Shown: piece by piece, positions 1-18,500 of the stretch
Numbering within the stretch: the first letter of the stretch is position 1
How the letters are laid out: the number at the start of each line of letters is the position of its first letter
Virus record (IMG/VR): IMGVR_UViG_3300042991_000129
Coordinates: 1 to 20,561 of that record
Direction: 5' to 3' (one strand)
DNA: 20,561 nucleotides
Source: a virus
The notes under the pieces: model-generated
Seen by the model: the letters and a program-made list of their open reading frames with translations, nothing else
Told to the model about the DNA's origin: nothing
Database searches by the model: none
Made by a program: the position numbers and the translations under genes

Positions 1-639
1 ATCACGCTTCGGACTAAACGCCTTCGGCTCCTTTCTGGCCCAGTTAAGGATGGTTGCATAATGAGATTTATACTTATCCCCTTTAGAAGCAATATATAAA
101 CTTAAATTATCTACCACTTTATCTATAATATGTTTTTTATATTTGTCAATTAAGCTATTATATTCTTCTTCTGTTAGTTTAACATTTTTCAATTCGCCAT
201 ATATGTTCTTCTTAACATTCTTAACATTCTTATCATTCTTTACATTATTGTTTGTGTTCACTAGTTGTTCATTAGTTGTTCGGTAGTTGTTCACTAGTTG
301 TTCATTTGGTTGTTCATTTTGCTGATACTGATTCCAGTTTTTGATTGTTATAAGCCGTTGATGACGCTTAGTTAGTTGTTCAATTTGTTGTCCACTTTCT
401 AGTGTTTTTAGTAAACGTTGCACTTTGCTTTCGTGAACTCCTGTAGTATAAGCCAAAATTTTACGGCCTGTTATGAATTGTCCGCTTGCTAATGTCATTC
501 TTTGGCCATTGAAAAGTACATCCTGCTTGTCATGGGTTGCCAATGTTAAAAGTAATACCCATAGTGAAATCCAGTCAGGGTCTTTTGAGTATGGATTACT
601 CCAAATCTTTCTATGTAACTTTATCCAACCATTATCCAT
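1..639 (-). CDS. Phage replication initiator / replisome organizer, 3' truncated by window edge
   Basis: The frame opens at ATG 637-639 and runs without a stop to base 1, giving 213 codons; the C-terminus lies outside the window. The N-terminus (MDNGWIKLHRKIW, then about 60 residues) resembles the winged-helix region of DnaD-like or lambda O-like phage replication proteins. A low-complexity N/E/Q-rich linker (about residues 105-145) follows. A C-terminal part containing SHYATILNWARK is typical of phage replisome-organizer proteins that load host helicase. The linker DNA carries 11-bp iterons and AT-rich 9-mers (separate entries), as in lambdoid phages where the origin lies inside the initiator gene. 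The gene is last in the leftward series and has its own promoter (645-673), whose -10 box ends only 5 bp before ATG. Family assignment is by motif resemblance; the DnaD versus O-like distinction is uncertain. Confidence 0.75.
   Translation of the reverse strand, partial: MDNGWIKLHRKIWSNPYSKDPDWISLWVLLLTLATHDKQDVLFNGQRMTLASGQFITGRKILAYTTGVHESKVQRLLKTLESGQQIEQLTKRHQRLITIKNWNQYQQNEQPNEQLVNNYRTTNEQLVNTNNNVKNDKNVKNVKKNIYGELKNVKLTEEEYNSLIDKYKKHIIDKVVDNLSLYIASKGDKYKSHYATILNWARKEPKAFSPKRD
211..246. repeat. Four AT-rich 9-bp repeats, candidate DNA unwinding element
   Basis: Four contiguous 9-mers lie at 211-219, 220-228, 229-237 and 238-246: CTTAACATT twice, CTTATCATT and CTTTACATT. They encode a KNV/KND repeat on the minus strand, so here protein repetition could also explain the pattern. 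They sit 8 bp from the 11-bp iterons and are about 78% A+T. That is the arrangement of initiator iterons plus AT-rich melting region seen in many origins. The melting role is inferred. Confidence 0.5.
255..321. repeat. 11-bp tandem iterons, candidate replication origin
   Basis: Five contiguous 11-bp units start at 255, 266, 277, 288 and 299 with consensus TGTTCANTAGT. Units 1 and 4 are identical; unit 3 has GG and unit 5 ends TTTGG. A sixth degenerate unit starts at 311 after one extra base, and a related TAGTTGTTCA lies at 373-382. The period is not divisible by three, so the repeat passes through all codon phases and is conserved as DNA rather than as protein. An 11-bp period places each unit on nearly the same helical face. 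The setting inside the initiator gene, beside an AT-rich block, is that of a lambda-type origin. Confidence 0.7.
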
Positions 640-644
640 AGTAT

Positions 645-673
645 ATTATAACATATTTTACTTAAGACTGCAA
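645..673 (-). promoter_or_regulatory. Sigma70-type promoter of the replication gene
   Basis: On the minus strand TTGCAG (668-673), a 17-bp spacer and TATAAT (645-650). The -35 box lies inside the last codons of the upstream gene (662-1012). Only ATACT separates the -10 box from the ATG at 639, so the predicted start falls on or next to the A of ATG and the mRNA would be leaderless or nearly so. Confidence 0.65.
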
Positions 674-1012
674 TAGCCTAACTATTTCTTTTTTAACTTC
701 TTCCATGAATCTATAGGCGGAAGGCTCACCTAGTTCTCCATAAAAAACATAATTTCCGTTTATTATATCACCGAGAATTGTCATGTCATTCACTTTATAA
801 TTCTCGTCTACTACAGGAGGTGTCATTCTAAAACCTGCTTTTATAAAATCATCTGCACGCAATGAGACCATAATATCAGTCAGTTTAGTGTGTATACCGC
901 CTTGAGTAGTGTCTAGTACGTGCTCTACTTCGTTATAGCGTGTAACTAGCTTTAAAGCGAGTTCCTTTGCATGGTCTATATTTGGCTCTCTATCTTCTCT
1001 TTTATTATCCAT
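662..1012 (-). CDS. Uncharacterised early phage protein, 116 aa
   Basis: A complete frame from ATG at 1012, preceded by an A/T-rich leader (ATTAAAATAATTTAAT) without Shine-Dalgarno, as for its neighbours. The product is mixed alpha/beta, charged at the N-terminus (MDNKREDREPNIDHAKELAL), with no membrane segment or metal motif. A VKKEIVRLL helix ends the protein. I do not recognise a family. It lies immediately upstream of the replication gene, whose promoter overlaps its 3' end, so a replication-associated role is possible by position only. Coding is supported by length, strand and tight packing. Confidence 0.7.
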   Translation of the reverse strand: MDNKREDREPNIDHAKELALKLVTRYNEVEHVLDTTQGGIHTKLTDIMVSLRADDFIKAGFRMTPPVVDENYKVNDMTILGDIINGNYVFYGELGEPSAYRFMEEVKKEIVRLLQS

Positions 1013-1020
1013 ATTAAATT

Positions 1021-1188
1021 ATTTTAATTAGACTCCTCGGAAATGTACATTTACTTTCGCCATGATTATTTTGTTAATGATTTGTGCCAGCTTTTGTCAG
1101 GTCAAACGCTGTTTTGTTACTGGCGAGCCGCCTTGTTTATGTTGCCATAAATTTCTGCGACTTTTAGATTTTAATTAGACACCTCGGA
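1021..1188. repeat. 21-bp direct repeat pair (20/21 identical) flanking a decayed-looking spacer
   Basis: Copies at 1021-1041 and 1168-1188 differ only at position 14 (T versus A). Copy 2 is the 3' end and stop codon of the 111-aa gene (residues RGV, stop). Copy 1 is the end of an 11-codon reading frame on the minus strand (1028-1063, ATG to TAA), also ending RGV. Between them, 1042-1167 holds no complete gene. One minus-strand frame reads EIYGNINKAARQ before a stop, resembling a helix-turn-helix fragment, which suggests gene loss or recombination between the copies. Confidence 0.55.
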
Positions 1189-1510
1189 CAGAACTTGAAT
1201 AGCTCTCCGTTTTCTTATAATATTTTTTAATTTTTCTTGCCAAATTACATATTGCTTCTTCAAAAGAATCTCCTCCGCAATCAAGCCTTGGGTCATGTGT
1301 TGCTATAAATCTATGTTCGTGTTCTTCTGGTTCGCCAGTTTCTAGCCAATAATTGAGGAGAGTATTTCTAGATTCGTCTTTCATTATTCTTTTAGTTTTA
1401 GGACAAACTTTCACAACTTCTATATCCATGTATAGCAAAGCCCAATCATAATTATCCGCCAACCAACACCAATCTTCGTAAAATTTACTTTTTTGTGGGA
1501 ACATTGACAT
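1175..1510 (-). CDS. Uncharacterised early phage protein, 111 aa
   Basis: A complete minus-strand frame from ATG at 1510 (MSMFPQKSKFYEDWCWLA); a second ATG two codons in could also be used. The leader AAATAATAAACT lacks a Shine-Dalgarno. The product is rich in aromatic residues in its first half (WCW, YDW) and ends in a basic segment, ARKIKKYYKKTE. A central HEHRFIATHDP is noticeable, but no known metal motif is complete. I do not recognise the family. Its 3' end is duplicated at 1021-1041. It belongs to the leftward run of small genes. Confidence 0.68.
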   Translation of the reverse strand: MSMFPQKSKFYEDWCWLADNYDWALLYMDIEVVKVCPKTKRIMKDESRNTLLNYWLETGEPEEHEHRFIATHDPRLDCGGDSFEEAICNLARKIKKYYKKTESYSSSVRGV

Positions 1511-1547
1511 AGTTTATTATTTAAATGATATAGTACAAGGAACGACT

Positions 1548-1724
1548 TTAAGAGATAAGCCTTACTTTTCCGCATTTTCTACACTCTCTTATAAGTCCTA
1601 CTGGGGCTGTAAATTTTTCTACGATTAATTTTCCAGTAGTTTTGTATTCATGCTTGCATAACGCTTGTTTCCAAGCTAATTTAATTATTTTCCAAATTTT
1701 ACCTTCTTCGGTTTTATCCTTCAT
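1548..1724 (-). CDS. Small zinc-ribbon-like protein, 58 aa
   Basis: ATG at 1724 to TAA at 1548-1550, beginning MKDKTEEGKIWKI. The product is basic with a C23-x-H25 pair and a C48-x2-C51-G knuckle near the C-terminus (ECRKCGKVR). This Cys/His pattern is common in small phage zinc-binding proteins. The start overlaps the last 11 bp of the upstream 96-aa gene, pointing to translational coupling. The leader AACACCAAGAAAA has no Shine-Dalgarno. Function is unknown; nucleic-acid binding is plausible from the charge and zinc motif. Confidence 0.65.
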   Translation of the reverse strand: MKDKTEEGKIWKIIKLAWKQALCKHEYKTTGKLIVEKFTAPVGLIRECRKCGKVRLIS

Positions 1725-2004
1725 TTTTCTTGGTGTTATTTTTTTTAGAGTTAATGAGCTTTAAGAATTCTTCTCGGCATTCGTTATATCCAAATGTGTG
1801 TCCACATATCGCACAGTAGGGGACGGCTTCTCTATGTATTGAGCAAATAGATATTTCCTGTTTTGGCATTCCTTCCAGCTCGGTAAGGAGGGCTTGGCGA
1901 CCAGCCTTATAGGCTTTATCTATCCAGCAATTAGTTTCCTGTAGAGTAACAAATCCTTTTGGAAATTCTCTATTAAATTTCTTTTTTAATTCTTCTAGTG
2001 TCAT
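1714..2004 (-). CDS. Small protein with Cys/His metal-binding cluster, 96 aa
   Basis: ATG at 2004, leader AACTTAAAATAAATT. The first half is helical and charged (MTLEELKKKFNREFPKGF). The second half has C54, H57, C64, C67, H69 and C76 (CSIHREAVPYCAICGH), enough to bind a zinc ion. A lysine/asparagine-rich tail ends the protein and overlaps the start of the 58-aa zinc protein by 11 bp. Two adjacent coupled zinc proteins suggest related function, but none can be named. The family is not recognised. Confidence 0.68.
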   Translation of the reverse strand: MTLEELKKKFNREFPKGFVTLQETNCWIDKAYKAGRQALLTELEGMPKQEISICSIHREAVPYCAICGHTFGYNECREEFLKLINSKKNNTKKNEG

Positions 2005-2017
2005 AATTTATTTTAAG

Positions 2018-2089
2018 TTATGATTCGTGAATTAATGGTACAAGTAAATCCCAATCAGACGGGTCAAGTTTATGGTCATCATCTGACAT
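2018..2089 (-). CDS. Possible acidic microprotein, 23 aa
   Basis: ATG at 2089 (MSDDDHKLDPSDWDLL) to TAA at 2018-2020, preceded by ACAAAATCAAATA, the A-rich leader type used by the neighbours. It is acidic and fills the space before the 96-aa gene, ending 13 bp upstream of that ATG. Support is limited to spacing, leader and reasonable composition; a chance frame of this size cannot be excluded. Confidence 0.38.
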   Translation of the reverse strand: MSDDDHKLDPSDWDLLVPLIHES

Positions 2090-2132
2090 TATTTGATTTT
2101 GTTATTAAACAACTAAAAGCTTTACACATAAT

Positions 2133-2225
2133 TTAATTTGTTAATGAGAATAATACACTAGCATACAACCAAAGTAAGCTTATAACTCCTGCTGCTATGA
2201 TAATTGTTTTGTATTCCTTGAACAT
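2133..2225 (-). CDS. Single-pass membrane microprotein, 30 aa
   Basis: ATG at 2225 to TAA at 2133-2135. A short basic start (MFKEYK) is followed by one hydrophobic segment (about residues 7-27: TIIIAAGVISLLWLYASVLF) and a short polar tail. It lies 8 bp downstream of the 57-aa gene's stop with the leader CAAATAAT, so it is probably co-translated. Microproteins of this form in phages include small holin-like, lysis-regulatory and superinfection-exclusion peptides; the sequence does not allow a choice. Confidence 0.6.
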   Translation of the reverse strand: MFKEYKTIIIAAGVISLLWLYASVLFSLTN

Positions 2226-2233
2226 ATTATTTG

Positions 2234-2407
2234 TTATATTATTTGTTCACCTGCTATCCAAACACTTTCTCTATACTGTAGTTTCTTATAATCACCTACT
2301 ATATACGCATCTTCTGCCACCATTTCCGCTTCGGCTCTGCTCTCTGCCTCAGTTATTGCAATAAAGAATCGTTTAACCTTTTTTACTGGAATCAAAAATC
2401 TCTTCAT
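2234..2407 (-). CDS. Small uncharacterised phage protein, 57 aa
   Basis: ATG at 2407 to TAA at 2234-2236. It begins MKRFLIPVKKVKRFFIAITE, followed by an alanine/glutamate-rich helix (AESRAEAEMVAEDA) and a YKKLQYRES strand. The beta-alpha-beta rhythm with 'AITEAESRAEAEMVAE' resembles small phage proteins that mimic sensory or surface-detection folds, but I cannot name a family. Only one base separates the upstream gene's TAA from this ATG, indicating coupling with the secreted 130-aa protein. Confidence 0.65.
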   Translation of the reverse strand: MKRFLIPVKKVKRFFIAITEAESRAEAEMVAEDAYIVGDYKKLQYRESVWIAGEQII

Positions 2408-2408
2408 G

Positions 2409-2801
2409 TTATTTAATTAAATAATATTCTGTGTGTTCTTTCGTAACTTTACTCTTCAAATATAAACATTGCGCAGTCCGGCATAAATTATCCTCAACAA
2501 TCCAATACTTTCCACTTTCTTCTACTACTACATACGCATGGTCATTAGTACCAACAATAACAGGAAATTTCTTGATTTTCTTAACCTTGTTATACTCAAT
2601 ATCCAAATAGTTTAATGACTTCTGTATAAAGAATCCATGTCCATATCCATATCTTTCCCCAAGCTTAATCCCAATTTCTGCATAACTTGTAATATGTCCC
2701 AAAAAGAACTCTGCTCTACTTATTGCATAAGGTAGACAATAATAAGCACTAACCTGTAAACTCAAAACAAAAAATAAAACTATTGCGATTAACTTTTTCA
2801 T
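2409..2801 (-). CDS. Secreted papain-like cysteine peptidase or amidase candidate, 130 aa
   Basis: ATG at 2801, leader ATTATAAACATT. Residues 1-19 form a clear signal peptide (KK, then IAIVLFFVLSLQ, then VSA as the likely cleavage site). The mature protein starts YYCLPYAIS. C22, H88 (in NDHAYVVV) and D104/N105 (in YWIVEDN) fall in the order and context of a papain-fold Cys-His-Asp/Asn site as in NlpC/P60, CHAP or transglutaminase-like enzymes. The length (about 111 mature residues) fits a single small catalytic domain. C107 and C112 could form a disulphide outside the cytoplasm. Possible roles are wall cleavage or action on a periplasmic or surface target. The catalytic assignment is inferred from motif order alone. 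Confidence 0.62.
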   Translation of the reverse strand: MKKLIAIVLFFVLSLQVSAYYCLPYAISRAEFFLGHITSYAEIGIKLGERYGYGHGFFIQKSLNYLDIEYNKVKKIKKFPVIVGTNDHAYVVVEESGKYWIVEDNLCRTAQCLYLKSKVTKEHTEYYLIK

Positions 2802-2923
2802 AATGTTTATAATTAGATAATACAGATAACGTTTTGTTGCCTAACACAGCATTTTGTCGTCATTTCAAGCGTCTGAGGATATACACCAAGTAAACCTTTC
2901 AACGCATCTTTTTATATATATCT
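2802..2923. other. Non-coding gap between two leftward genes
   Basis: 122 bp without a convincing gene. On the minus strand a 16-codon frame (MTTKCCVRQQNVICII) ends just before the secreted protein's ATG; it is Cys-rich and too short to support. GCGTTGAAAGG and ACGCTTGAAATG are imperfectly related. I found no -35/-10 pair with 16-18 bp spacing. Confidence 0.3.
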
Positions 2924-3070
2924 TTAACCTAACATTAGATATACAATAATAAATACTATCATAACACACCAGAACGCAATCGCACTTTCTATATCATATT
3001 CATTTTTATCATAGTGCCATTGGTATATATCTTTACATCCTATATGTTTTTCCTTCCCCCTATAAGGCAT
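2924..3070 (-). CDS. Small C-terminal-anchored membrane protein, 48 aa
   Basis: ATG at 3070 to TAA at 2924-2926. A polar N-terminal half (MPYRGKEKHIGCKDIYQW) is followed by a hydrophobic C-terminal half (about residues 29-47: IAFWCVMIVFIIVYLML), giving a one-pass tail-anchored layout. The ATG lies 1 bp after the stop of the 53-aa gene, implying coupling. One of four predicted membrane microproteins in the leftward run. No family recognised. Confidence 0.62.
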   Translation of the reverse strand: MPYRGKEKHIGCKDIYQWHYDKNEYDIESAIAFWCVMIVFIIVYLMLG

Positions 3071-3071
3071 A

Positions 3072-3233
3072 TCAGTTATGTAAGTATTTATTAACACTCT
3101 CAAATTCTATCGGCCTTCTAGCTATTCTATCGTAGTCCTTAATCAATTGTGCCAACAGTACATCTACTTCTTCTTTAAATTGCTTCAATGACTTTTCGTC
3201 TTTAGGTATTTTTATTTCTTTTAGTTTAGTCAT
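3072..3233 (-). CDS. Small charged helical protein, 53 aa
   Basis: ATG at 3233 to TGA at 3072-3074, starting MTKLKEIKIPKDEKSLKQF. It is amphipathic, Lys/Glu-rich and probably helical (FKEEVDVLLAQLIKDYDRIA). Its start overlaps the stop of the 69-aa zinc ribbon gene by 8 bp (ATGACTAA) and is preceded by AACACC, the same hexamer as at three other starts in this arm. Family unknown; coding is well supported by the overlap and leader. Confidence 0.68.
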   Translation of the reverse strand: MTKLKEIKIPKDEKSLKQFKEEVDVLLAQLIKDYDRIARRPIEFESVNKYLHN

Positions 3234-3435
3234 GGTGTTCTTTTGTTATATTATAATTCTCATCAATGTCATAAGAGTAGTAATCATCACAATCATAAAC
3301 TGCATTACAATGCTCGCACCAAAGTATTGCTTTCTCAATATCATACTCGTATGTTACTGACTCCTGTAATGGATGACTACAATGCGGACACGGATATTTC
3401 GTCTCCCTGTAATGTGAAATGTAAGATGGTTGCAT
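3226..3435 (-). CDS. Zinc ribbon protein, 69 aa
   Basis: ATG at 3435, preceded by AACTAAAAAACACC. Two CxxC knuckles, C16-C19 (CPHCSHPLQES) and C40-C43 (LWCEHC), separated by 20 residues, make a classic zinc ribbon. The C-terminal third is acidic and tyrosine-rich (YDCDDYYSYDIDEN). It has its own sigma70-type promoter 33 bp upstream. It overlaps the 53-aa gene by 8 bp. Nucleic-acid or protein binding is typical of such small phage ribbons; the specific role is unknown. Confidence 0.78.
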   Translation of the reverse strand: MQPSYISHYRETKYPCPHCSHPLQESVTYEYDIEKAILWCEHCNAVYDCDDYYSYDIDENYNITKEHHD

Positions 3436-3467
3436 GGTGTTTTTTAGTTAAATTATTTTCTGTGCGT

Positions 3468-3496
3468 ATTATATATCAAAGTCATTTTCATTGCAA
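3468..3496 (-). promoter_or_regulatory. Sigma70-type promoter ahead of the zinc-ribbon gene
   Basis: Minus strand: TTGCAA (3491-3496), 17-bp spacer, TATAAT (3468-3473). The predicted start near 3461 leaves a leader of about 25 nt to the ATG at 3435. The -35 box abuts the stop of the transglycosylase-like gene. It would start an internal transcript inside the leftward run. Confidence 0.65.
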
Positions 3497-3497
3497 G

Positions 3498-3761
3498 CTA
3501 TTCCTCTTGACAAACAAAGTTATTGATTGTCCTACGCCAGTTGCCATAGAATTTTGTGCCTTGCGTCCATAGTTTATAGCATTGTTCTATTTGCCATCTA
3601 GCGTCAGTAAAGAATCGTTCATCTTCTATTATATCTTTATGCCACGGATATGAGATACCGCAGAAACCGTAGCCAATTTGGTCATTATGCTTTCTGTTAA
3701 TAGACCATAAAGAGTTCTCACTGTCAAGTAGTGCAAGGAACTTAATATTATGATTTGACAC
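3498..3761 (-). CDS. Lytic transglycosylase / lysozyme-like domain, 5' end not canonical
   Basis: Written here from GTG 3759-3761 (87 aa), but the same frame is open back to 3866 without an ATG. The product reads FLALLDSENSLWS, GYGFCGIS, then RFFTDARWQIEQCYKLW and GTKFYGNW. This order (Glu-containing ENxLW, a G-x-C-x-I loop, a W-x-Q-x-x-x-C helix, T-x-FYG) resembles phage SLT-type lytic transglycosylases; E in SEN would be catalytic. Upstream residues VHIADEVSNHNIKF fit the first helix of the fold, so translation probably begins before the GTG. The upstream gene (3836-4198), which supplies a signal peptide, lies one base out of frame and overlaps this open frame at 3836-3866. A -1 shift would give one 233-aa secreted enzyme. 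The alternatives are a rare start codon or an assembly error. Confidence 0.6.
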   Translation of the reverse strand: MSNHNIKFLALLDSENSLWSINRKHNDQIGYGFCGISYPWHKDIIEDERFFTDARWQIEQCYKLWTQGTKFYGNWRRTINNFVCQEE

Positions 3762-3835
3762 TTCGTCTGCTATATGAACATACTGTTGCTGGTCTTCGTC
3801 TACATTTAATTTTTTACAAACAGTTTTAGAACTTG

Positions 3836-4198
3836 TTATAGGTTCGGTTGAAAAACACTGCTGTAATTAATTACAACAGAGTCGCAGTTGCGAGCGGCTT
3901 TAATTCTCCAAGTTGTGAATTGTTTAGTTGATGGTATTTCTTCCATCTTGTATGTCTTGTCCATCTTTAGTTGTGCTAGTGCTTTTTCAGTTTTACATTT
4001 TGCTACTACTGCTTCTCTTACCATTGTTTTAGAGTTGTCTACTCTTAATGAATCAGTTTCATATACAAGCTCATAGTCTGAAATGCTAGAAGCGGCCCAA
4101 GCTTGCGGAAACATCTGTCTGCTAAAGAACATCACTAGCGCAAACGCACTGACAATTAGAACGAATGTGAACATTGCATTTGTAATTTTGTTTAACAT
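3836..4198 (-). CDS. Signal-anchor protein upstream of the transglycosylase-like frame, 120 aa
   Basis: ATG at 4198, preceded by CCCAAAACACC. The N-terminus has a hydrophobic segment (about residues 9-26) followed by QAWAAS, a plausible signal peptidase site near residue 35; it could also act as a signal anchor. The rest is a small domain with two cysteines (AKCKTEK and ARNCDS) and a beta-rich end, VVINYSSVF. It ends at TAA 3836-3838, inside the open frame of the transglycosylase-like gene, -1 relative to it. The frames overlap at 3836-3866, which contains a T5 run on the minus strand (GTTTTTC) where Phe-tRNA could slip. Alone it is an exported protein of unknown role; joined, it would be the export module of a lysis enzyme. 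Confidence 0.65.
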   Translation of the reverse strand: MLNKITNAMFTFVLIVSAFALVMFFSRQMFPQAWAASSISDYELVYETDSLRVDNSKTMVREAVVAKCKTEKALAQLKMDKTYKMEEIPSTKQFTTWRIKAARNCDSVVINYSSVFQPNL

Positions 4199-4257
4199 GG
4201 TGTTTTGGGTTATTTATTTTTATATATTTGAAACTCCTTGTCTGATTGACAAAAGAG

Positions 4258-4512
4258 CTATTTTATTGGATTGTATATATTCCATGATTTCTTTACACCA
4301 TTTCTTGCTTGTCTGATTTCTTTAATATCCATTACGAATTGCGGGTAAATTCTATTCTTAGAATATATATAAGTAGCCTTTGTATATTTATCTAGTGTTT
4401 CCTTGTTTATTTGTTTTTTCTTATAGGCTTCCCGTAAGTAGTCATCATATACAAAGCCTGTAGTAGGTGAATAGCGAACTGGCTTAGCTAAATAGGCTTC
4501 TGAGTTTCCCAT
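4258..4512 (-). CDS. Uncharacterised small basic protein, 84 aa
   Basis: ATG at 4512 with leader TTTTTTAAACCTCATTCAAT. It starts MGNSEAYLAKPVRYSPTTGF, is rich in Lys and Tyr (YKKKQINKETLDKYTKATY), and has no cysteine or membrane segment. I do not recognise a family. Just after its stop, minus-strand TTGTC-AATCA-GACAA (4238-4252) can form a small intercistronic hairpin. Strand, spacing and length support coding. Confidence 0.65.
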   Translation of the reverse strand: MGNSEAYLAKPVRYSPTTGFVYDDYLREAYKKKQINKETLDKYTKATYIYSKNRIYPQFVMDIKEIRQARNGVKKSWNIYNPIK

Positions 4513-4545
4513 ATTGAATGAGGTTTAAAAAATAGGAATGATTTA

Positions 4546-4564
4546 TAGACGCGAGGGACGTCTA
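4546..4564. repeat. 6-bp inverted repeat at a gene end
   Basis: TAGACG (4546-4551), a 7-base loop and CGTCTA (4559-4564). It overlaps the stop codon of the 41-aa gene and lies before the 84-aa gene. It is GC-richer than its surroundings and may be an RNA processing or attenuation hairpin. No T-run follows on the transcribed strand, so it is not a standard terminator. Confidence 0.4.
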
Positions 4565-4687
4565 ACGTATTACGCAATAACTTTCACTTGTTGTCAATAA
4601 GTAGATTAGATTAAAGAATAATAGTGCAGTTGTCACTCCGAACAGAGCATATACTATCACGTCTAGGTCTTCTAAAGTAGCTTTCAT
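4562..4687 (-). CDS. Single-pass membrane microprotein, 41 aa
   Basis: ATG at 4687 to TAG at 4562-4564, leader ACACAAATAAAT. A short acidic start (MKATLEDLDV) precedes one membrane span (about residues 11-31: IVYALFGVTTALLFFNLIYL) and a polar tail with one Cys. One of the predicted membrane microproteins in this arm. It uses TAG where most neighbours use TAA. Family unknown. Confidence 0.6.
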   Translation of the reverse strand: MKATLEDLDVIVYALFGVTTALLFFNLIYLLTTSESYCVIR

Positions 4688-4705
4688 ATTTATTTGTGTT
4701 AAATG

Positions 4706-4861
4706 TTAATCTTTTATTCTAATATATTCATTGCGTTTTGTCAATGGTATATCGTCTTCGTCACGCATTGAGTCTACATAATATGTTCCGTCAATGCCTT
4801 CTATCCAAACGTCTACAATTTCACCCGTTCTTTTATGTTTAACTTTGAAAGATGTAGTCAT
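4706..4861 (-). CDS. Small beta-rich protein, 51 aa
   Basis: ATG at 4861 to TAA at 4706-4708. MTTSFKVKHKRTGEIVDVW is followed by IEGIDGTYYVDS and an acidic DEDDIPL. The pattern resembles small phage proteins with an SH3-like barrel, in which a 'tGei..V' strand pair is common, but this is only a visual likeness. It begins 7 bp after the stop of the 27-aa membrane peptide. It is soluble, with no Cys. Family not established. Confidence 0.65.
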   Translation of the reverse strand: MTTSFKVKHKRTGEIVDVWIEGIDGTYYVDSMRDEDDIPLTKRNEYIRIKD

Positions 4862-4868
4862 ATTGTTT

Positions 4869-4952
4869 TTAATTAGTTAATAGATTAGAACATATCCCTG
4901 CTAATATGTCAATAAGGAACAGTAACAGTATAAAATAGATTATAGTTTTCAT
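4869..4952 (-). CDS. Membrane microprotein, 27 aa
   Basis: ATG at 4952 to TAA at 4869-4871. MKTIIYFILLLFLIDILAG is almost entirely one hydrophobic segment, then a Cys and a short polar tail. The G-I-C context could be a signal peptide with a lipobox-like LAGIC, so a very short lipopeptide is also possible. The ATG lies 4 bp after the stop of the 117-aa gene and 7 bp separate it from the next gene, giving a coupled trio. Confidence 0.55.
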   Translation of the reverse strand: MKTIIYFILLLFLIDILAGICSNLLTN

Positions 4953-4956
4953 TTTA

Positions 4957-5310
4957 TTAAAGTATTATAAAATATTCCTCAGGATTATGCCCCGCTTTTT
5001 CGCATTTATAACAAGATAAATAATGAACATCATTTATAACTCTTTCGCTCCAATCAGCGTCAGATTTAAACCCTTCATTACCACAATTCGGACATTTGTA
5101 AAACTTCTCTAATTCTCCATTCTCAGGATTTATCATTGCAACATTACAATCCTCATCTGTCAAAAATATACAATCAGAGTGAGGATTATATTCCCATTTT
5201 ACGCCATCATTTAATCCGCAATCGTTAGGATTGTTTGCGTAGGCTTTTAACAGGTCTGCAAGCTGGTCTATTTCACGATAGCCAAGCTTTGACAAGTCTT
5301 GTGTGTTCAT
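4957..5310 (-). CDS. Phage protein with zinc ribbon, first gene of the leftward transcript, 117 aa
   Basis: ATG at 5310, preceded by ATCAAAAACACC. The N-terminal half (GYREIDQLADLLKAY, then a VFLTDED-like IFLTDEDCNVAMIN) resembles a widespread unnamed family of small phage proteins. The C-terminal half carries a zinc ribbon with C73-C76 (CPNCGNEGF) and C100-C103 (CYKC). It is the promoter-proximal gene of the leftward arm, behind the promoter at 5376-5404, so it should be expressed early. Its function is not known. An inverted repeat (5341-5363) lies in its leader. Confidence 0.78.
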   Translation of the reverse strand: MNTQDLSKLGYREIDQLADLLKAYANNPNDCGLNDGVKWEYNPHSDCIFLTDEDCNVAMINPENGELEKFYKCPNCGNEGFKSDADWSERVINDVHYLSCYKCEKAGHNPEEYFIIL

Positions 5311-5340
5311 GGTGTTTTTGATTAGTGATATTTTAGCTAT

Positions 5341-5363
5341 AAATAGAATGTAAAGTTCTATTT
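5341..5363. promoter_or_regulatory. 8-bp inverted repeat in the leftward leader, possible operator
   Basis: AAATAGAA (5341-5348), 7-base spacer TGTAAAG, TTCTATTT (5356-5363). It lies just downstream of the predicted start of the leftward promoter, where a bound repressor or an RNA hairpin would act. It is too AT-rich for a stable terminator. Confidence 0.45.
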
Positions 5364-5375
5364 GTAACTGTTAAA

Positions 5376-5404
5376 AGTATATCATAAAAACAACATAATT
5401 GCAA
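5376..5404 (-). promoter_or_regulatory. Main leftward sigma70-type promoter
   Basis: Minus strand: TTGCAA (5399-5404), 17-bp spacer, TATACT (5376-5381). The predicted start near 5369 gives a leader of about 60 nt before the ATG at 5310. This is the only good leftward promoter ahead of the whole run. Several inverted and direct repeats surround it. Confidence 0.65.
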
Positions 5405-5413
5405 GCGTTTGGC

Positions 5414-5458
5414 AAGACTTATTTTCAAATAGTAATTTGAAAACTGTAAGACTTATTT
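5414..5458. promoter_or_regulatory. 22-bp operator-like inverted repeat flanked by an 11-bp direct repeat
   Basis: TTTTCAAAT (5422-5430), AGTA, ATTTGAAAA (5435-5443) is a perfect 9-bp inverted repeat. Its flanks carry the direct repeat AAGACTTATTT at 5414-5424 and 5448-5458. The block begins 10 bp upstream of the leftward -35 box. AAGACTT recurs at 5510-5516 and, inverted, at 5761-5767. This looks like a regulator-binding array; no regulator gene is in the window. Confidence 0.5.
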
Positions 5459-5481
5459 ATTCAATCCTGCATTACCCTTTT

Positions 5482-5507
5482 AACTGTTGTCGCTTTCTCC
5501 AACAGTT
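5482..5507. repeat. 8-bp inverted repeat in the divergent control region
   Basis: AACTGTTG (5482-5489), a 10-base spacer, CAACAGTT (5500-5507). It could be a protein site or a weak transcript hairpin. Neither strand has a clean T-run after it, so I do not call it a terminator. Confidence 0.4.
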
Positions 5508-6057
5508 TAAAGACTTTTCTTTGTATTAGTTTCTTTTCTGTATTTATTAATATATATAGGCCAAATATTAATTAATATATATAATATATATAATATTTTT
5601 AATATATATTTTCACCAGTAATTTACTAGGAATTAATTATACAGAAAGAAAAATAAATAAAAAGAAAAACAGAATAATAGAAAAAAGCATATACCTGAAA
5701 GAAGACATTTTTTACTCAGTAAGAAAATACATATTCTTTCTTGCTGTAGAAATATTCTACAAGTCTTTACCCCTAGGGGGGTGTACACCAGCTTTTTCTT
5801 CCCCCCCTTCCTGCACATATCACATGGGTGTATTCGTTCATCTCACAAAATTCTCTATATTTCTATTTCAGTGGTAAACTTAGATATAAGGTATAGTGGG
5901 TATGATGTTATGTATAGAGACATAATGTAGCGTATTCTAAGATACCTAATTTAAGAGATTGTAATAAAGATGAGTGTTATATCATCTTGAAGTATATAGG
6001 AGGATATTTCACGATAAAAACAGTATAGATTTTGATATTGGCTTACATATAATAAGC
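5508..6057. other. Divergent control region: AT-rich core, purine tract, palindromes
   Basis: No convincing gene. 5545-5615 is almost pure A/T with repeated ATATATAA steps. 5640-5690 is a purine-dominated stretch with spaced A-tracts, likely curved DNA. 5745-5761 is a 7-bp inverted repeat (TGTAGAA, ATA, TTCTACA). 5770-5789 holds two adjoining perfect 10-bp palindromes, followed by C7 at 5801-5807. 5967-5988 is a 7-bp inverted repeat (AAGATGA, 8 bases, TCATCTT). GCTTA/TAAGC at 6041-6057 abuts the rightward -35 box. Together with the repeats nearer 5400 this is the main switch region of the genome. Confidence 0.5.
5770..5807. other. Adjacent GC palindromes, candidate packaging or cohesive-end site
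   Basis: CCCCTAGGGG (5770-5779) directly abuts GGTGTACACC (5780-5789). The six G residues at 5776-5781 can also pair with C7 at 5801-5807. The island stands out in an AT-rich region and lies about 310 bp upstream of the small terminase gene, where cos sites commonly lie in cos-terS-terL-portal genomes. It could instead be an operator pair. The assignment is positional inference. Confidence 0.3.
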
Positions 6058-6115: not shown

Positions 6116-6892
6116 ATGGAAGAGAGTGCAATAAGGGACAAGGAGGAGAAGGGGAGGAAGCGTTTTTATACCAGAGCAATGACTGTGAGTGAGAAGATGA
6201 AGTTGGGTAGAATGAGGAATAAGGCAGAGGTGTTGGGGTTACCTATAGAGGAGTTGGAGAGGTACAGTATTTTTGCACCTGAGTTGGAAGCCAGAGCGTT
6301 TGTGGACAAGCTGGTAGAGAATAATGGTGAAGTGGTGAAGACTATGAGGCAGTTATATCCTACATTGAAGCAGCAAGGAGCAGTGTATGTGATGAAGAAG
6401 GGGTTGGAGTTATGTGAAGCATTGAGAGTTAAAGAGTTGATAAAGGAGGCACTTGACAAAAAGAGTATAAGTGTTGAAAGTATAGTTAGTAAGATATTGG
6501 AGATTAGTAAGAGTGCTAAGCGGGACAGTGATAAGTTGAGAGCATTGGAGTTGCTTGGAAAATTTAAGAATATGTTTAATGATGGTATGGGTGGTAATAA
6601 AGTAGAATACAATTTAAATATTAGTGAAGATGCAGCAAGAAGATTACTTGAGCGTAGAACGAGATACGACATTGGACAAGCAGGACGTTTCAATGGAGGA
6701 AGCACGTGCGATGTTATCAATGGCGAGGAAGTCGTTGATGGATTATGCGATAGTGATGCAGAAAGATTACAGACCGAATTGGCATCACGAGATAATGGCG
6801 AAGAGGTTGGAGGACGTGGCATTGGGGAAGACGAAGAGGTTGATGTTGTTCATGCCTCCGAGGCACGGGAAGACGGAAATAGCGACAGTTAA
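6116..6892 (+). CDS. terS: Terminase small subunit, with long C-terminal overlap on terL
   Basis: ATG at 6116, leader AAATAAGTTTTATTAT. The TerS binds the packaging start site and hands DNA to the large subunit. Residues about 58-100 look like the HTH DNA-binding part. Residues 120-155 (SIVSKILEISKSAKRDSDK, then LRALELLGKFKNMF) match the assembly segment typical of phage TerS proteins, and LNISEDAARRLLERR (about 167-181) looks like the usual TerL-contacting end. A normal protein would stop there. Instead the frame stays open for about 77 more residues, which are acidic, Gly/Asp/Glu-rich and out of frame with the start of terL. The extension may be a true overprinted tail or an accident. Lys codons are mainly AAG, unlike most later genes. 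Confidence 0.82.
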   Translation: MEESAIRDKEEKGRKRFYTRAMTVSEKMKLGRMRNKAEVLGLPIEELERYSIFAPELEARAFVDKLVENNGEVVKTMRQLYPTLKQQGAVYVMKKGLELCEALRVKELIKEALDKKSISVESIVSKILEISKSAKRDSDKLRALELLGKFKNMFNDGMGGNKVEYNLNISEDAARRLLERRTRYDIGQAGRFNGGSTCDVINGEEVVDGLCDSDAERLQTELASRDNGEEVGGRGIGEDEEVDVVHASEAREDGNSDS

Positions 6893-8180
6893 GTTTCCGG
6901 CATGGTATTTAGGTAGGAATATTGACAAAGAAGTGATTTGTTGTTCTTATAGTGCTGACTTAGCTGAGGAGTTTGGTAGAAAGGCTAGAGCGTGTGTAGC
7001 GGATGAGTTACATGGTGCGATATTTCCTGACTGTAGTTTACAGACTGGTAGTAAGAGTGCTACGAACTGGAAGGTTAGTAGTAGAGGTGGGTTTACGGCT
7101 ACTGGAGTTGGTGGTGCAATTACAGGTAAGGGGGCTAATGTATTGATTATTGATGACCCGATTAAGAACAGAGAGGAGGCTGAGTCGGAGACGTATAGAA
7201 AGAGGGTATGGGACTGGTATACATCAACGGCTTTTACCAGGTTGGAGAAAGATGGTGCGATTATTTTAATTATGACACGTTGGCATGATGATGATTTAGC
7301 TGGTAGATTATTGGCATTAGAGGGTGAGAGAGGATATGCGTATGATAAGAAGGTGGGTAAGTGGGTTAAGGGTCGTGCCACTAGAAAGGACATGAAGGAT
7401 GGGAAGTGGGATGTAATTAGATTTCCTGCTATAGCGACAGAGCACGAACAGTTTAGAAAGCAGGGTGAGGCTTTATGGCCTGATAAGTATGATATAAATG
7501 CTTTAGAGGATATTAAAAGAGCAGTGGGTATGAGGGACTGGGGTGCACTTTTTCAGCAAGACCCGGTAACGGAAGAAGGTGCAGATTTTAAAAGTGAATG
7601 GTTTAAGTATTGGCAAGAAATACCTAAAGGTGTTAGATATATTACTACAGTGGATTTAGCAATTAGTCAGAAAGAAAGTGCAGACGACTCGGTAGTAATG
7701 ACGGTCGCTTTTGACGCACATGATAATCTGTATATAGTAGATTATAAAAACTGGAAAGCAAATCCTAGTGAAGTTATAGATGAAATCTACAACCACTACA
7801 ACAAATATCATGGCTATATAGGAATTGAAAGCGTAGGTTATCAGCAATCACTATTCCACTACTTGAGATTAGCTGGACATTCCAGAGGTCAGTATTTACC
7901 AGTAGAAGAAATAAGAACAAGGTCAGATAAAGAAAGTAAAATCAGAGGACTGATACCATTCTATACGAATGGAAAAATCTATCATGATAAAAATAACTGT
8001 CAAGAATTAGAAGACCAGTTAAAGCGCTTTCCTAGTGGTAAACATGATGACATTATTGATGCACTTGCTATGAGCTTAGGCATGCTGCGCAGACCGCAAA
8101 TATATTCAGATATGAAAAAAGACCTAACACAAGAAATTGGTATTAAGTATGGATTAGATGGTAAACCATATATTTCCTAA
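6630..8180 (+). CDS. terL: Terminase large subunit (ATPase and nuclease)
   Basis: The packaging motor. Start taken as ATG 6630; GTG 6624 and ATG 6693 (MEEARAML) are alternatives, and homology seems to begin near 6693. Numbered from 6624: Walker A PPRHGKTE at about 78-85, Walker B VLIIDDP at about 173-179, coupling motif TRWHDDDL at about 218-225. The RNase H-like nuclease acids are D344 (TTVDLA), E402 (IGIESVG) and D479 (KHDDIIDAL). All are intact. It overlaps terS by about 200-260 bp, past the P-loop. Codon choice changes sharply near 7570: Lys is mostly AAG before and AAA after, at about the junction of the ATPase and nuclease domains. Identification is firm; the start is not. Confidence 0.93.
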   Translation: MQQEDYLSVERDTTLDKQDVSMEEARAMLSMARKSLMDYAIVMQKDYRPNWHHEIMAKRLEDVALGKTKRLMLFMPPRHGKTEIATVKFPAWYLGRNIDKEVICCSYSADLAEEFGRKARACVADELHGAIFPDCSLQTGSKSATNWKVSSRGGFTATGVGGAITGKGANVLIIDDPIKNREEAESETYRKRVWDWYTSTAFTRLEKDGAIILIMTRWHDDDLAGRLLALEGERGYAYDKKVGKWVKGRATRKDMKDGKWDVIRFPAIATEHEQFRKQGEALWPDKYDINALEDIKRAVGMRDWGALFQQDPVTEEGADFKSEWFKYWQEIPKGVRYITTVDLAISQKESADDSVVMTVAFDAHDNLYIVDYKNWKANPSEVIDEIYNHYNKYHGYIGIESVGYQQSLFHYLRLAGHSRGQYLPVEEIRTRSDKESKIRGLIPFYTNGKIYHDKNNCQELEDQLKRFPSGKHDDIIDALAMSLGMLRRPQIYSDMKKDLTQEIGIKYGLDGKPYIS

Positions 8181-8183
8181 TAT

Positions 8184-8212
8184 TTGACATATTATTAAAT
8201 ATATGTTATATT
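8184..8212 (+). promoter_or_regulatory. Rightward sigma70-type promoter into the non-coding island
   Basis: TTGACA (8184-8189), 17-bp spacer, TATATT (8207-8212), 4 bp after the terL stop. The predicted start is near 8219. No gene follows for more than 500 bp, so it should make a non-coding RNA or a long leader. Confidence 0.6.
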
Positions 8213-8218
8213 TTAAGT

Positions 8219-8375
8219 GCCTAGATATTATATATATTATATAATTACTCTACCCCCGAAGAGCTTCCCCCCTATAGTCCCCCCTTCATTTTTTCATAAA
8301 TAAGATATAAGAAACTATAGGCATTTGCTTGCTTCCTTTACTGTAGCCATTTAATTGTAAATGAACGGTTTTTTT
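8219..8375 (+). ncRNA. Candidate rightward small RNA, about 157 nt
   Basis: Bounded by the promoter at 8184-8212 and the T7-tailed hairpin at 8348-8375. A perfect 8-bp inverted repeat, CCTATAGT (8271-8278) and ACTATAGG (8314-8321), can form a helix. The RNA is C-rich: C5 at 8253, C6 at 8267 and C6 at 8279. No ORF of note. Existence is inferred from promoter, structure and lack of coding; the class is not recognised. It could instead be the antisense partner of the leftward RNA. Confidence 0.35.
8348..8375 (+). terminator. Weak hairpin plus T7 run
   Basis: CATTTA (8348-8353), loop ATTG, TAAATG (8358-8363), then AACGG and seven T residues (8369-8375). The AT-rich stem makes it a weak intrinsic terminator, placed to end the transcript from 8219. 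Confidence 0.4.
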
Positions 8376-8379
8376 AAGT

Positions 8380-8610
8380 ATACTTTCTCTACCCCCTTCT
8401 ATCGGCACCTTGCTTCCCGCTAAAGTTGTCTCTTTTTATCGGTTGACAACCCCTATATTTTAGCATGGGGTTTTCCTGGTCTTTACTGGTGCAATTGACT
8501 AGACCCCGTTTACTTTTCCGTTCGGAATGATGCCTTAGCGTAGCCCATATTAGCGTGGAGCGTCAGGCATTCCTCTGACAGAGTATCGCTCGTAAAGTAA
8601 CTCACTTTAC
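8380..8610 (-). ncRNA. Candidate leftward structured RNA, GC-enriched island
   Basis: The minus-strand promoter at 8617-8645 predicts a start at G8610, the first base of a perfect hairpin (GTAAAGT, GAGTT, ACTTTAC; 8592-8610). Next come GCTC (8588-8591) with GAGC (8558-8561), stacked on CTGAC/GTCAG (8575-8579 with 8562-8566). GGAATGCC in that loop can alternatively pair with GGCATCATTCC. Then AGACC/GGTCT (8478-8482 with 8501-8505), CCCC/GGGG (8450-8453 with 8467-8470) and GACAAC/GTTGTC (8425-8430 with 8445-8450). G+C is clearly higher than in flanking DNA and no ORF above about 15 codons was seen. The 3' end is not visible, so 8380 is only a boundary of convenience. I see no tmRNA, RNase P, tRNA or intron signature. 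Confidence 0.5.
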
Positions 8611-8616
8611 ACAATT

Positions 8617-8645
8617 ATTATACACTATTTTAACAAAAATATCAA
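8617..8645 (-). promoter_or_regulatory. Leftward sigma70-type promoter of the candidate structured RNA
   Basis: Minus strand: TTGATA (8640-8645), 17-bp spacer, TATAAT (8617-8622). Six bases after the -10 box comes G8610, which opens a 7-bp hairpin. The promoter points away from the adjacent coding gene and into the non-coding island. Confidence 0.65.
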
Positions 8646-8715
8646 GTATAAGCTCTTGAAGTAAATATAAAAATATGTTAAAATATACATTTATATATTA
8701 AATTATAAAATACTC

Positions 8716-8744
8716 TTGACTTTTGTAAAAAAAGAGAGTATAAT
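8716..8744 (+). promoter_or_regulatory. Rightward sigma70-type promoter of the portal/capsid unit
   Basis: TTGACT (8716-8721), 17-bp spacer, TATAAT (8739-8744). The -35 hexamer equals that of the terS promoter. The start near 8751 leaves about 24 nt before the GTG at 8775. Confidence 0.75.
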
Positions 8745-8774
8745 GTATGTGTAAAATAAACAATCTTCAAAGTA

Positions 8775-9038
8775 GTGTATAAAGAGATTCTAGAGCAGGC
8801 TATAGCCAATAGGCGACCTTATGACCATATTGGCTGGAGAGGGATTTGTACAAAATGTGGAATAGATTATAACATATTTGGTGAAGAAGTCAAGAAGAAG
8901 TATGGAGATACTTATAAGGATATGAAGAGTGTTGAGGTGAGGTGTAAGAGGACTGAGTGTAATGGGTTGGTGAAGGTACTTTACAAGATGAAAGAGGAGC
9001 GTGCTATACATTTGACTTCAATTGCACGCAGGAAATAG
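8775..9038 (+). CDS. Small zinc-finger-like protein before the portal gene, 87 aa
   Basis: The frame opens at GTG 8775; the next upstream in-frame codon of note is a stop at 8757-8759, and no ATG is available before residue 50. C25-x2-C28 (CTKCGIDYNIF) and C57-x4-C62 (CKRTEC) form a probable zinc site. The rest is basic with a helical N-terminus (YKEILEQAIANRRP). It directly follows its own promoter. Codons are mostly G-ending (AAG, GAG, AGG), like terS. The family is not recognised. The setting between terminase and portal is where HNH or zinc accessory packaging proteins sometimes lie, but no HNH motif is present. Confidence 0.65.
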   Translation: MYKEILEQAIANRRPYDHIGWRGICTKCGIDYNIFGEEVKKKYGDTYKDMKSVEVRCKRTECNGLVKVLYKMKEERAIHLTSIARRK

Positions 9039-14733: not shown

Positions 14734-15591
14734 ATGGGATTCAATATTAAAAGGCAAGTTGATGCTATTGTGCTAACTAATGCTGAAATAAAAGAAGAAA
14801 AAGAAAAGCTCCTTCGTGATGTAGAAAGACTAGAAGCCACAATTTTTAAACGTAAACAAGAAGCTGATGTTCTTCCAAATCTTGAAGAAAAAATAGATAG
14901 CTTGACAAAACAATCAAATGATATTCAAGTAGCTTTACTAGAAGCAGAAAGTAGGTTAAAACAGGTTGAATTAAAAAGAAAGGAGGTTGAAGCTGTTATT
15001 GTTAGTGATGAAGATGCTAAGAAGGCATTAGAATTGGAAATTGAGTTTTTGAGACAACAGCTTATTAATATTCAATTTGAATTAAAGAGTGTTGAGAGTT
15101 CAAAGACCGCAGAAGAAGGTAGATTGAAAATTACTGGAGAGGATTCTAGTAAGGCTGCTTTAGCATTATCTATACTTAATGCTGAGGTAGAACAAAAGAA
15201 AACTGAATTAGATAGATTAAAAAAAAATATAGCTCAGAGAGACGCTGAATTATCTGATAAAAATGCTGATGTACTTATTACAGCTGCTGGCATTGCGTCA
15301 GCTGAGAAAGAGAAAATTGAATTAGTAAATAAAATTGCTGCACTTAGATATGATTTATCAAGGACTGAGCAAGAAGTTGCACAAAGAGAAGCTAGGGTTG
15401 CGGCACTTGAGCAAGAATTGATAAATAAGAAAAAACAATTAGAAGATGAATTTGTAAAGAAATTTGCAGATAAAGAAGGAGATTTAAATTTCAGAGAATC
15501 TGCTCTTGACGAGAAAGCTGAAAGATTAAGGGGGTTAAAGTTAGAGCTAGAAAAACATTTCGGGAAAAAACTTCCTAACATAATATTCTAA
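14734..15591 (+). CDS. Long coiled-coil protein, 285 aa
   Basis: ATG at 14734, leader AACAATTTAAAAT. Nearly the whole length is heptad-rich Lys/Glu/Leu sequence (about residues 15-275), with two interrupting regions around 125-135 and 170-190. No signal, zinc or enzymatic motif. It ends HFGKKLPNIIF, and its stop overlaps the next ATG (TAATG), coupling it to the 1441-aa fibre. This suits a rod, spacer or fibre-attachment/assembly factor for the fibre encoded downstream. It is too short for a usual tape measure and lacks hydrophobic segments. Confidence 0.7.
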   Translation: MGFNIKRQVDAIVLTNAEIKEEKEKLLRDVERLEATIFKRKQEADVLPNLEEKIDSLTKQSNDIQVALLEAESRLKQVELKRKEVEAVIVSDEDAKKALELEIEFLRQQLINIQFELKSVESSKTAEEGRLKITGEDSSKAALALSILNAEVEQKKTELDRLKKNIAQRDAELSDKNADVLITAAGIASAEKEKIELVNKIAALRYDLSRTEQEVAQREARVAALEQELINKKKQLEDEFVKKFADKEGDLNFRESALDEKAERLRGLKLELEKHFGKKLPNIIF

Positions 15592-18500
15592 TGGCTGGAT
15601 TTGGAATCCGAGAAGAGCAGGGTGGTGTGAAAATTTTAGATGATGGAGTTACCTTAGTGGAGAAGGCGAGGTCAATAGACTTTACTGGAGACATGGTTGA
15701 AGGTACAGCCATTGAAGCTGATGTTACTGAGACTATAGATTCAAGTATTCCTCCTATATCTGGCTATTTACTTTTAGCTGGTAGAATAGGTGGACAGACT
15801 GCTCAAGGAGGTACGCAGGCTGGAGATGATTTGACGTTTTTTGGTAATTCGTCTGATGGTGGATACGTGCATTTAAAGAGTGCTGTATTAGTTGGGTTTG
15901 GAGAGGGAACGGATAATCCTGCTACGATGGTATCGGCTAATACTAAAGATACAAGTCCTCCTCCGGAGTTATTTACTAATGAAGGGTTTGAGGATTGGAC
16001 ATATATTGAGTTTCCTGATGGTTGGGAATATGCGGGGAATCCTGATTCTCCTGGATATGCGGCTTCTAAGACAACAGATTCGCATAGTGGGACGTATGCT
16101 TTATATACAAATGGTGGAGGGGATATAGATGGGTTTAGTGGATTATTTCAGTCATATACTGATTTAGAGCAGTCAGATACGTATACAATGAAGTTTTGGG
16201 GTAAAGGGAGTGGGAAAACTGCTACTATAGGATATGCACAGGCTATAGAAGATATTAGTGTTTGGTGGGCATTTACTGGGCCTAATGCTGGAACATGGGT
16301 TGACCTTAATCCTAGTTATTTGACAGATGGTGGTCTTGAGGTATGGGTAGGAGATGAAACTCCTAAGTATTTTGAGAATATAGGCGACGCTGGATATTTA
16401 GTTACTAAGTCTTTGGATTCTGATGTGGGGACTTATGCTATGCAGTTAAATGGGGATTTGATTGGCCCTAATTTTAGTGGAGCGGTTCAGTTTATAGATG
16501 GATTGACTTATGCAGATTCATATACATTTACTTGTAGAGCTAAGAACTTAGGTGATTTTTATTTGGTATACGTGAGTGATGATGATGATACTGGCGATAC
16601 TTATTATTGGAATTTTACATTACAGCAGTGGGATAGCTTGACTCCTGATTTAGTTTCTGATGGTGATATGGAGTTATGGACTGACCCTAATACTCTTACA
16701 CAATGGACTGATTTTCCTACTGGTGGTGGAAGTCCTACATTAGACCAAGAAACTGTAAATGTTTACAGTGGATTATTTGCTGCTAAAATGACACCTGATG
16801 CTGGAACTGCGTTAGGAATACTACAGACACAAGCAGGGATAGGCACGGCTGGAGATAATTTATGGTTTATAGGACATTTTGCAACTGCTTCTAGTGGAAC
16901 AGTTACAGTGGCATTTTTAAATGGTGCAGGTGATGAGATTTGGAATTTTACTACGCAGAGTTGGGATGCTTATGCTGGCCCACCTCCAAGTTCTGACCAG
17001 AGATATGAATTTACAGGAGTTGGTACAGAGTACATAAAACGCGATTTAAGTTTTACTATACCTACTGATGAGGGAATTACAGTACAGATAGTTGGAGATT
17101 CTAGTGTAGTTACTTATGTAGATAGCGTGCATTTAAGATTCGGAGATGCTAGACCTTCTGGGCCAGATTATTTCTATGGATTTACTACTACGGCTAGTTA
17201 TGCAACTTATACATCTCCAGCTGTACAGATGATAATACACGCTACTGAGAATTTAGGAGTAATTCTAGTTGCAAATGCAGAGATATTGATTGATAATGTT
17301 ACGCTTAGAAAGGACGGTACTGGAGATAATATTTTAAAGAATTATAGTTTTGAGAACTGGTTTACGGCTGCTAATACTGACCCTAATGTATTGGCTAACT
17401 GGAATGAATTATATTATGGAGTTGATACGTATTATTTAGAGCAGACTACTAAGATGGACGACCCTGATTATGTATATTCAGGGTATTCTTCTGCTAAACT
17501 TGCTGCATGGGGAGGAACTTATTATATTTACCAGAATGCAGATTGTTCTGCTTTAGATGAGGGACATGAATTAGGATTTCAGGCGTATGTATTGTCGCCT
17601 AACATGGATGCCAGTATATTTATATACTTTTTAAATCATGGTGGAGACCAAGTTTATAATTTCAATACACAGAGCTGGGATGCTTATGTAGGTGGTGAGC
17701 CTACGGGTGATAATATTATTGAGAGGACTGCGACATCTACCTGGGCTGATGCTAGTATTGAGGTAAAAGTACCTGCTGATAAACATATTGTATGTTACGT
17801 AGGAGTAGATGGTGGAGCTAATGTATATATGGATAGCATTAGATTAGTTGAGAATATTGGTGGAGGTGCTCCAAGCAGTGATTATTTTCATACGTTTAAT
17901 TTAACTGGTGACTGGGCTGAATATACTTCACCTAGTCCACAAGTTATTGTTCCAGAGGATGAAGAAATTACTGCATTGATAGGTTCAGTTGATACTGGGG
18001 CTACAATGGATGATTATAGTTTACTTAAAGATGGGACAAGTCCAGATATTGCTACTAATGGAGGATTTGAAACATGGACATTTTATGGGTACGCAATAAA
18101 TGACTGGGAAATAGGTAATTACTACGATGACGGTGGTGATGTATTTAGAGAAGAAACAATCGTTCATGGAGGTACATACTCACTTAAAATTGACAATGAC
18201 GGTACTGGTAGGAATTATGTTGGACAAGTAGTAGGGTCATTAACCGCAGGAACTGATTATGATATTTCCATATACGCAACTACAGATTTAGGAAGTGAAT
18301 CAGAATTAGGAGTAATGGTTTTAAATGATATAGAGCAAGACGCTACTCAGATATGGAATTTCACACTTGGACAATGGGACGCGTTTAGTGGAGGATTAAG
18401 TGGACAAGGAAATGACTATAGAGATACTACAAGTTTAACATCTAGTTGGAGCGAATGGAGTGATATTATAACCGCACATGCTAGTGAGAAAATGTTTCCT

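Follow-up and report, generated by a model that had tools for sequence, protein, structure and literature searches.

A conserved and very probably folded RNA element without Rfam match between the terminase and head genes of an uncultured phage

The window analyzed here is the whole of IMG/VR virus record IMGVR_UViG_3300042991_000129 (20,561 bases). Leftward genes occupy positions 1–5800, and a rightward late block opens with a terS-like gene (6116), followed by terL, a gene for an 87-aa cysteine-motif protein, and genes for portal/head-tail connector-like, scaffold-like, and major head proteins. A 1441-aa protein with CBM_4_9 carbohydrate-binding matches (15591–19916) adjoins the late genes and is probably a tail or fibre protein. 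The island under study separates terL from the 87-aa gene (Table 1) and occupies a gap (8181–8774) that was initially annotated as being without a credible ORF; indeed, terL stops at 8180 and no ORF of at least 50 aa is found inside. The gap is a composite of a structured core, a low-structure block with a G-rich motif, and rightward promoters directed toward the late genes. Its description as a GC-enriched island holds for the core only (8402–8612, GC 0.464), as the whole gap has a GC content of 0.322, below both the window (0.359) and terL (0.408).

Searches of IMG/VR with terL and the portal gene recovered one close relative, L002 (8,510 bp), with identical gene order, the island of which is 83% identical at the nucleotide level over nearly the whole gap and has the same neighbours. 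Exact 16–21-mer probes and a gapped pattern run against IMG/VR viral contigs returned the L002 contig as the sole true homologue, the gapped pattern gave just two chance coding matches in genome contigs, and blastn against phages and plasmids returned no island homologue. A covariance model of the core (R1) found nothing besides its two founders in approximately 240 loci and no match in 194 genomes from a single bacterial phylum, the latter run without a positive control.

Table 1 Features in and around the gap between terL and the 87-aa gene (positions in the window)
Feature	Position	Strand	Basis
Terminase large subunit (phrog_38)	6624–8180	+	Family match
Sigma-70-like promoter TTGACA-17-TATATT, start ~8219	8184–8212	+	Sequence match; in L002 TTGACA identical, -10 TATAAT, spacer 16
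Conserved block of low structure, four C/G runs (8253–8257, 8267–8272, 8279–8284, 8392–8396)	8225–8401		Alignment with L002
18-mer GGGGGGACTATAGGGGGG	8267–8284	-	Recurrent in other phages; identical in L002
40-codon ORF, start GTG (window) or ATG (L002), doubtful gene	8286–8408	-	Codon comparison with L002
Structured RNA core, nine helices including pseudoknot 8488–8492 with 8405–8409	8402–8612	-	Covariation, window and L002
5' hairpin, 9 pairs, G-U ends	8591–8611	-	G8605-C8597 to A-U in L002
Leftward promoter TTGATA-17-TATAAT	8617–8645	-	Sequence match; L002 has the same -10 and spacing
Promoter-like site TTGAAG-17-TAAAAT with TG, toward late genes	8656–8684	+	Sequence match; kept in L002
Late promoter TTGACT-17-TATAAT	8716–8744	+	Sequence match; kept in L002
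87-aa protein, conserved CxxC...C(x4)C, zinc-ribbon-like	8775–9038	+	Next gene in all relatives

In the nine-helix structure of the core, 99% of the cells are paired across the window and L002, compared to 37–50% when the partners are slid. Seven pairs are changed on both sides in L002, and these fall in five of the nine helices: helix 1 (the pair given in Table 1), helix 6 (G8499-C8479 and C8497-G8481, both to A-U), helix 7, which is the pseudoknot (C8489-G8408 to U-A), helix 8 (G8464-C8419 to A-U), and helix 9 (U8446-A8429 to C-G and C8445-G8430 to U-A). An eighth double change (A8570-U8530 to C-G) is likely and falls on an alignment gap. When alignment columns were permuted within substitution class (n = 500), a procedure independent of the named structure, the consensus fold of the core had a z-score of -4.3, with an energy as low in one of the 500 shuffles, and its six predicted compensatory pairs were matched in none. 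Random placement of the 31 substitutions reached seven compensatory pairs in 0 of 20,000 trials, a test that leans on the named structure, itself derived in part from the two sequences compared. Compensatory changes beyond chance, a generic mark of structured RNA, are therefore present, although the covariation comes from two sequences only (window and L002) and the counts are small. Folding of single sequences was not decisive alone (z -1.2 for the window and -2.7 for L002).

The perfect 7-bp hairpin noticed earlier from position 8610 (8610–8604 with 8598–8592) is part of this fold, and further, partly exclusive helices were also recovered, two GGGG runs being alternative partners of CCCC at 8467–8470; the bulged long hairpin carries a conserved A-rich loop, AACCGAUAAAAA. 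None of the 4227 Rfam families (including ROOL, GOLLD, OLE, pRNA, and riboswitches) matched the island at the gathering threshold and nothing beyond chance appeared at E ≤ 10, which fits an unrecognised class. Affiliation with an Rfam family, tRNA or tmRNA was discarded after negative results from Rfam and the ARAGORN model, and ARAGORN found no tRNA in the window. The initial annotation proposed that a structured RNA of unrecognised class starts at about 8610 and runs leftward, and both the compensatory changes and the Rfam search support this; its suggestion of one large leftward RNA over the whole gap is not supported, as structural covariation covers only some 211 nt and ends near 8402. 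Very probably the core is a conserved folded RNA of a class new to Rfam, and it is most likely read leftward. This strand is favoured because of its wobble pairs: it has 95 Watson-Crick pairs, five G-U pairs, and one mismatch, compared to 95, one, and five, respectively, on the opposite strand.

Both initially annotated promoters are present at 8184–8212 (+) and 8645–8617 (-). That the island is enclosed by this convergent pair is only partly accurate, since two further rightward promoters (8656–8684 and 8716–8744), both kept in L002, had been omitted. Promoter-like sites are abundant in this AT-rich stretch (12 found vs. 5.1 ± 2.1 expected), and the weight of the leftward promoter rests for this reason on its conservation and not on the match itself: L002 retains its -10 (TATAAT), its 17-bp spacing, and its distance from the first helix, with a weaker -35 (TTGCTT). 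The late promoter at 8716–8744 has a TTGACT..TATAAT counterpart ahead of the 87-aa gene in another relative, L097, with related elements upstream of terS in both the window and L002. A sequence scan found no intrinsic terminator for the leftward RNA, which counts against a stand-alone transcript. As the promoter at 8184 is also kept in L002, the island may encode an antisense RNA pair. The structured stretch could also be the 5' leader of a rightward late transcript started from that promoter, and the energy and covariation of the opposite-strand fold are likewise significant against shuffles; with five non-pairs on that strand vs. one on the leftward strand, two more late promoters downstream of the structure, and relatives without such a leader, we consider this highly improbable.

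Within the pseudoknot lies the start of the 40-codon leftward ORF, a location that counts against a stand-alone RNA, and the frame ends just before the G-rich motif. The window and L002 share its start position, frame, and TGA stop, and the sole indel between them (40–41 codons) is one in-frame codon. These features would suit a structured 5' leader controlling translation of this ORF (window 8408–8286), in which the GUG/AUG start base-pairs with the main hairpin loop and unfolding would switch translation on. The pairing reads GCACC-GGUGC in the window and GCAUC-GAUGC in L002, so that the loop carries a change matching that from GUG to AUG. Against such a leader, the frame lacks a coding signature: substitutions are even over the codon positions (7, 9, and 10), pN (0.23) exceeds pS (0.17), and 17 of the 18 changed codons are nonsynonymous, so purifying selection was not detected in this comparison of 40 codons and two sequences. 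Shuffles contain an open frame of this length in 2.7% of cases, and the ORF has no Pfam match. Altogether, we regard the leader as rather unlikely.

The block at 8225–8401 behaves differently from the core, having no compensatory pair on the leftward strand (z -0.7) and a weak excess on the other (z -2.2). Its flanking runs share CTCTACCCCC, and both read CTTTACCCCC in L002. More fully, TATAnTTnCTCTACCCCC is found in two copies (8240–8257 and 8379–8396) located 139 bp apart, as if changed together in L002 (CTTTACCCCC). The 18-mer GGGGGGACTATAGGGGGG occurs in at least 120 IMG/VR stretches (viral contigs), where approximately 2 matches would be expected for a random equal-frequency 18-mer in a collection assumed to be ~60 Gb, G runs not being random. 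Its contexts range in GC from 0.30 to 0.73, and many singleton occurrences are probably due to chance. The loci (L115–L234, L094–L096, L235–L237, and L103) belong to phages and a Methylorubrum extorquens megaplasmid. Among 386 genomes of one phylum six matches were found vs. zero for the reversed pattern, with no terminase detected in the ~3 kb flank of the six, and the genomes of another phylum had zero vs. zero. No paper with the motif string in this context was found in the literature.

A terminase gene lies within 1 kb of the motif in 63 of 127 loci, whereas the figure is 30% for positions picked at random within these loci. Counted by lineage, it is near the motif in only 5 of 35 clusters (tblastx and blastn linkage) or, among the multi-member lineages (blastn clusters), within ~350 bp in 5 of 12; a phrog_2 terL within this distance is among the conserved placements. 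The motif as a terminase marker everywhere was accordingly cut back after this clustering; judged by gene neighbourhood, it is terminase-associated in some lineages. It follows terL by 86 bp in the window and L002, by ~200 bp in SS120-1, and by 26–200 bp in T7-like relatives as a group, and where it stands directly before the terS start (≤ 300 bp) its orientation is the same in 32/32 loci, nearly all of one lineage. The T7 right end (gene 19, phiOR promoter, terminal repeat) is similar in having a non-coding stretch with G/C runs straight after a phrog_38 terminase, whereas here head genes follow instead of early genes, the motif is oppositely oriented, and, unlike in T7, no phage RNA polymerase was found in the 20.6-kb fragment. 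A role of the motif as a general promoter for phage RNA polymerases was rejected, given long motif records (63.6 kb and 108 kb) without PF00940, and is possible in T7-like members.

These associations raise the alternative that the island serves mainly in DNA packaging or as a genome terminus (pac, cos or a T7-type concatemer junction). In that case the terminase target would be the G-run motif together with the C-run repeats that flank it, and the RNA would be incidental or helping. The recurrence of the motif, its proximity to and orientation with terminase genes, and the joint change of the paired repeats in L002 would agree with this, as would CCCCCGTAGGGGGG ~27 bp inside the terminus of P-SSP7, for which the genome ends have been mapped (PMC3350473). 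Conversely, a terminase near the motif is absent from 5 of the 12 multi-member lineages and from most singletons, and the 18-mer was not found in eight other cyanophage/marine T7-like phages, including close relatives of SS120-1, although several of these have paired C runs at the same place. At the position of the motif P-SCSP2 has the T7-promoter-like GACACTATAGGAGA, which makes a phiOR-like phage promoter an alternative in the T7-like lineage, and L097 and L003 (60–80% TerL identity) lack both island and motif, though these are fragments and could carry the motif elsewhere. A packaging role may gain slightly from the terminase-associated motif and lose because close relatives lack the island, and we judge the terminus reading unlikely. 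Very unlikely, in our view, is its combination with the core, a new pseudoknotted phage RNA class encoded with and transcribed into a G-tract element by the terminase and acting in packaging, either as a packaging RNA beside an ordinary terminase or through transcription-coupled marking of the packaging site. The G-rich block may best be treated as a separate conserved element whose packaging or terminus role is worth testing, no more; if GGGGGGACTATAGGGGGG marks packaging or ends, it would offer a sequence signal that could be tested in many uncultured phages.

The slot between terL and the 87-aa gene is variable. It measures only 44 bp in L003 and ~120 bp in L097 (with the late promoter), neither having an island, while L098 and L099 have 1.5–1.7 kb with other leftward ORFs, none of a confident family, and L111 and L112 have a rightward gene, GroES-like by eye, ahead of the 87-aa gene. 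Relatives with 60–80% identical terminases have either no island or different leftward genes there, which points to a replaceable cargo slot. As in morons, the island has its own promoter (by sequence), runs opposite to its neighbours, is present or absent among close relatives, and differs in base composition. Somewhat favoured as an explanation is that this cargo slot, which separates terL from the head genes, contains a moron-like structured RNA that belongs to a new class and is transcribed independently. The host sigma-70 RNA polymerase would start at ~8610 and proceed leftward against the late operon, and the first ~211 nt would form a compact core of a 5' hairpin, a two-part stem-loop, and the bulged long hairpin, the loop of the two-part stem-loop pairing with the core 3' end as a pseudoknot. 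The RNA would then continue into the G-rich block or be processed before it, and we infer that it acts on its own, binding a protein or RNA partner of the phage or host.

The phi29-type pRNA is a small structured phage RNA, to which this core might be likened, encoded as it is beside a packaging gene; it differs in that Rfam gave no match, the phage has an ordinary TerL, and close relatives manage without the island. ROOL and GOLLD are large ornate RNAs of phages and prophages, GOLLD often exceeding 800 nt (PMC12286853). These phage non-coding RNAs of unknown function turned out to be elaborate RNA assemblies, and the core resembles them in being phage-encoded, non-coding, and elaborately folded with a pseudoknot, whereas it is only ~211 nt long, has no Rfam match and no tRNA in the window, and has two members. 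A compact RNA with covariation support, located in an exchangeable slot next to terL, would be a small, tractable addition to the phage non-coding RNAs.

Other contents of this region were also observed. An ORF-free leftward stretch in the same slot of L099 (2290–2760, -) has a TTGACA promoter-like site and folds slightly better than shuffles (z -1.8), and is possibly another RNA cargo, as judged from a single sequence. The podovirus MW202803.1 (L257) has a window-like order of terS, terL, a small protein, and portal, in which the small protein, annotated as DNA-directed RNA polymerase, occupies the place of the 87-aa gene. The TerL of the window has no intein, while those of L097 (1292–3634, +) and L099 (2–1756) carry one ahead of the TRWHDDD motif (Pfam Intein_splicing 2e-19 in L097). 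Inside it lies a recombination-endonuclease-VII ORF (L097 2173–2637, +, and L099 286–747; Pfam E-values 6e-21 and 6e-22) in a different reading frame on the same strand as the intein, and a homing endonuclease overlapping its own intein out of frame would be unusual.
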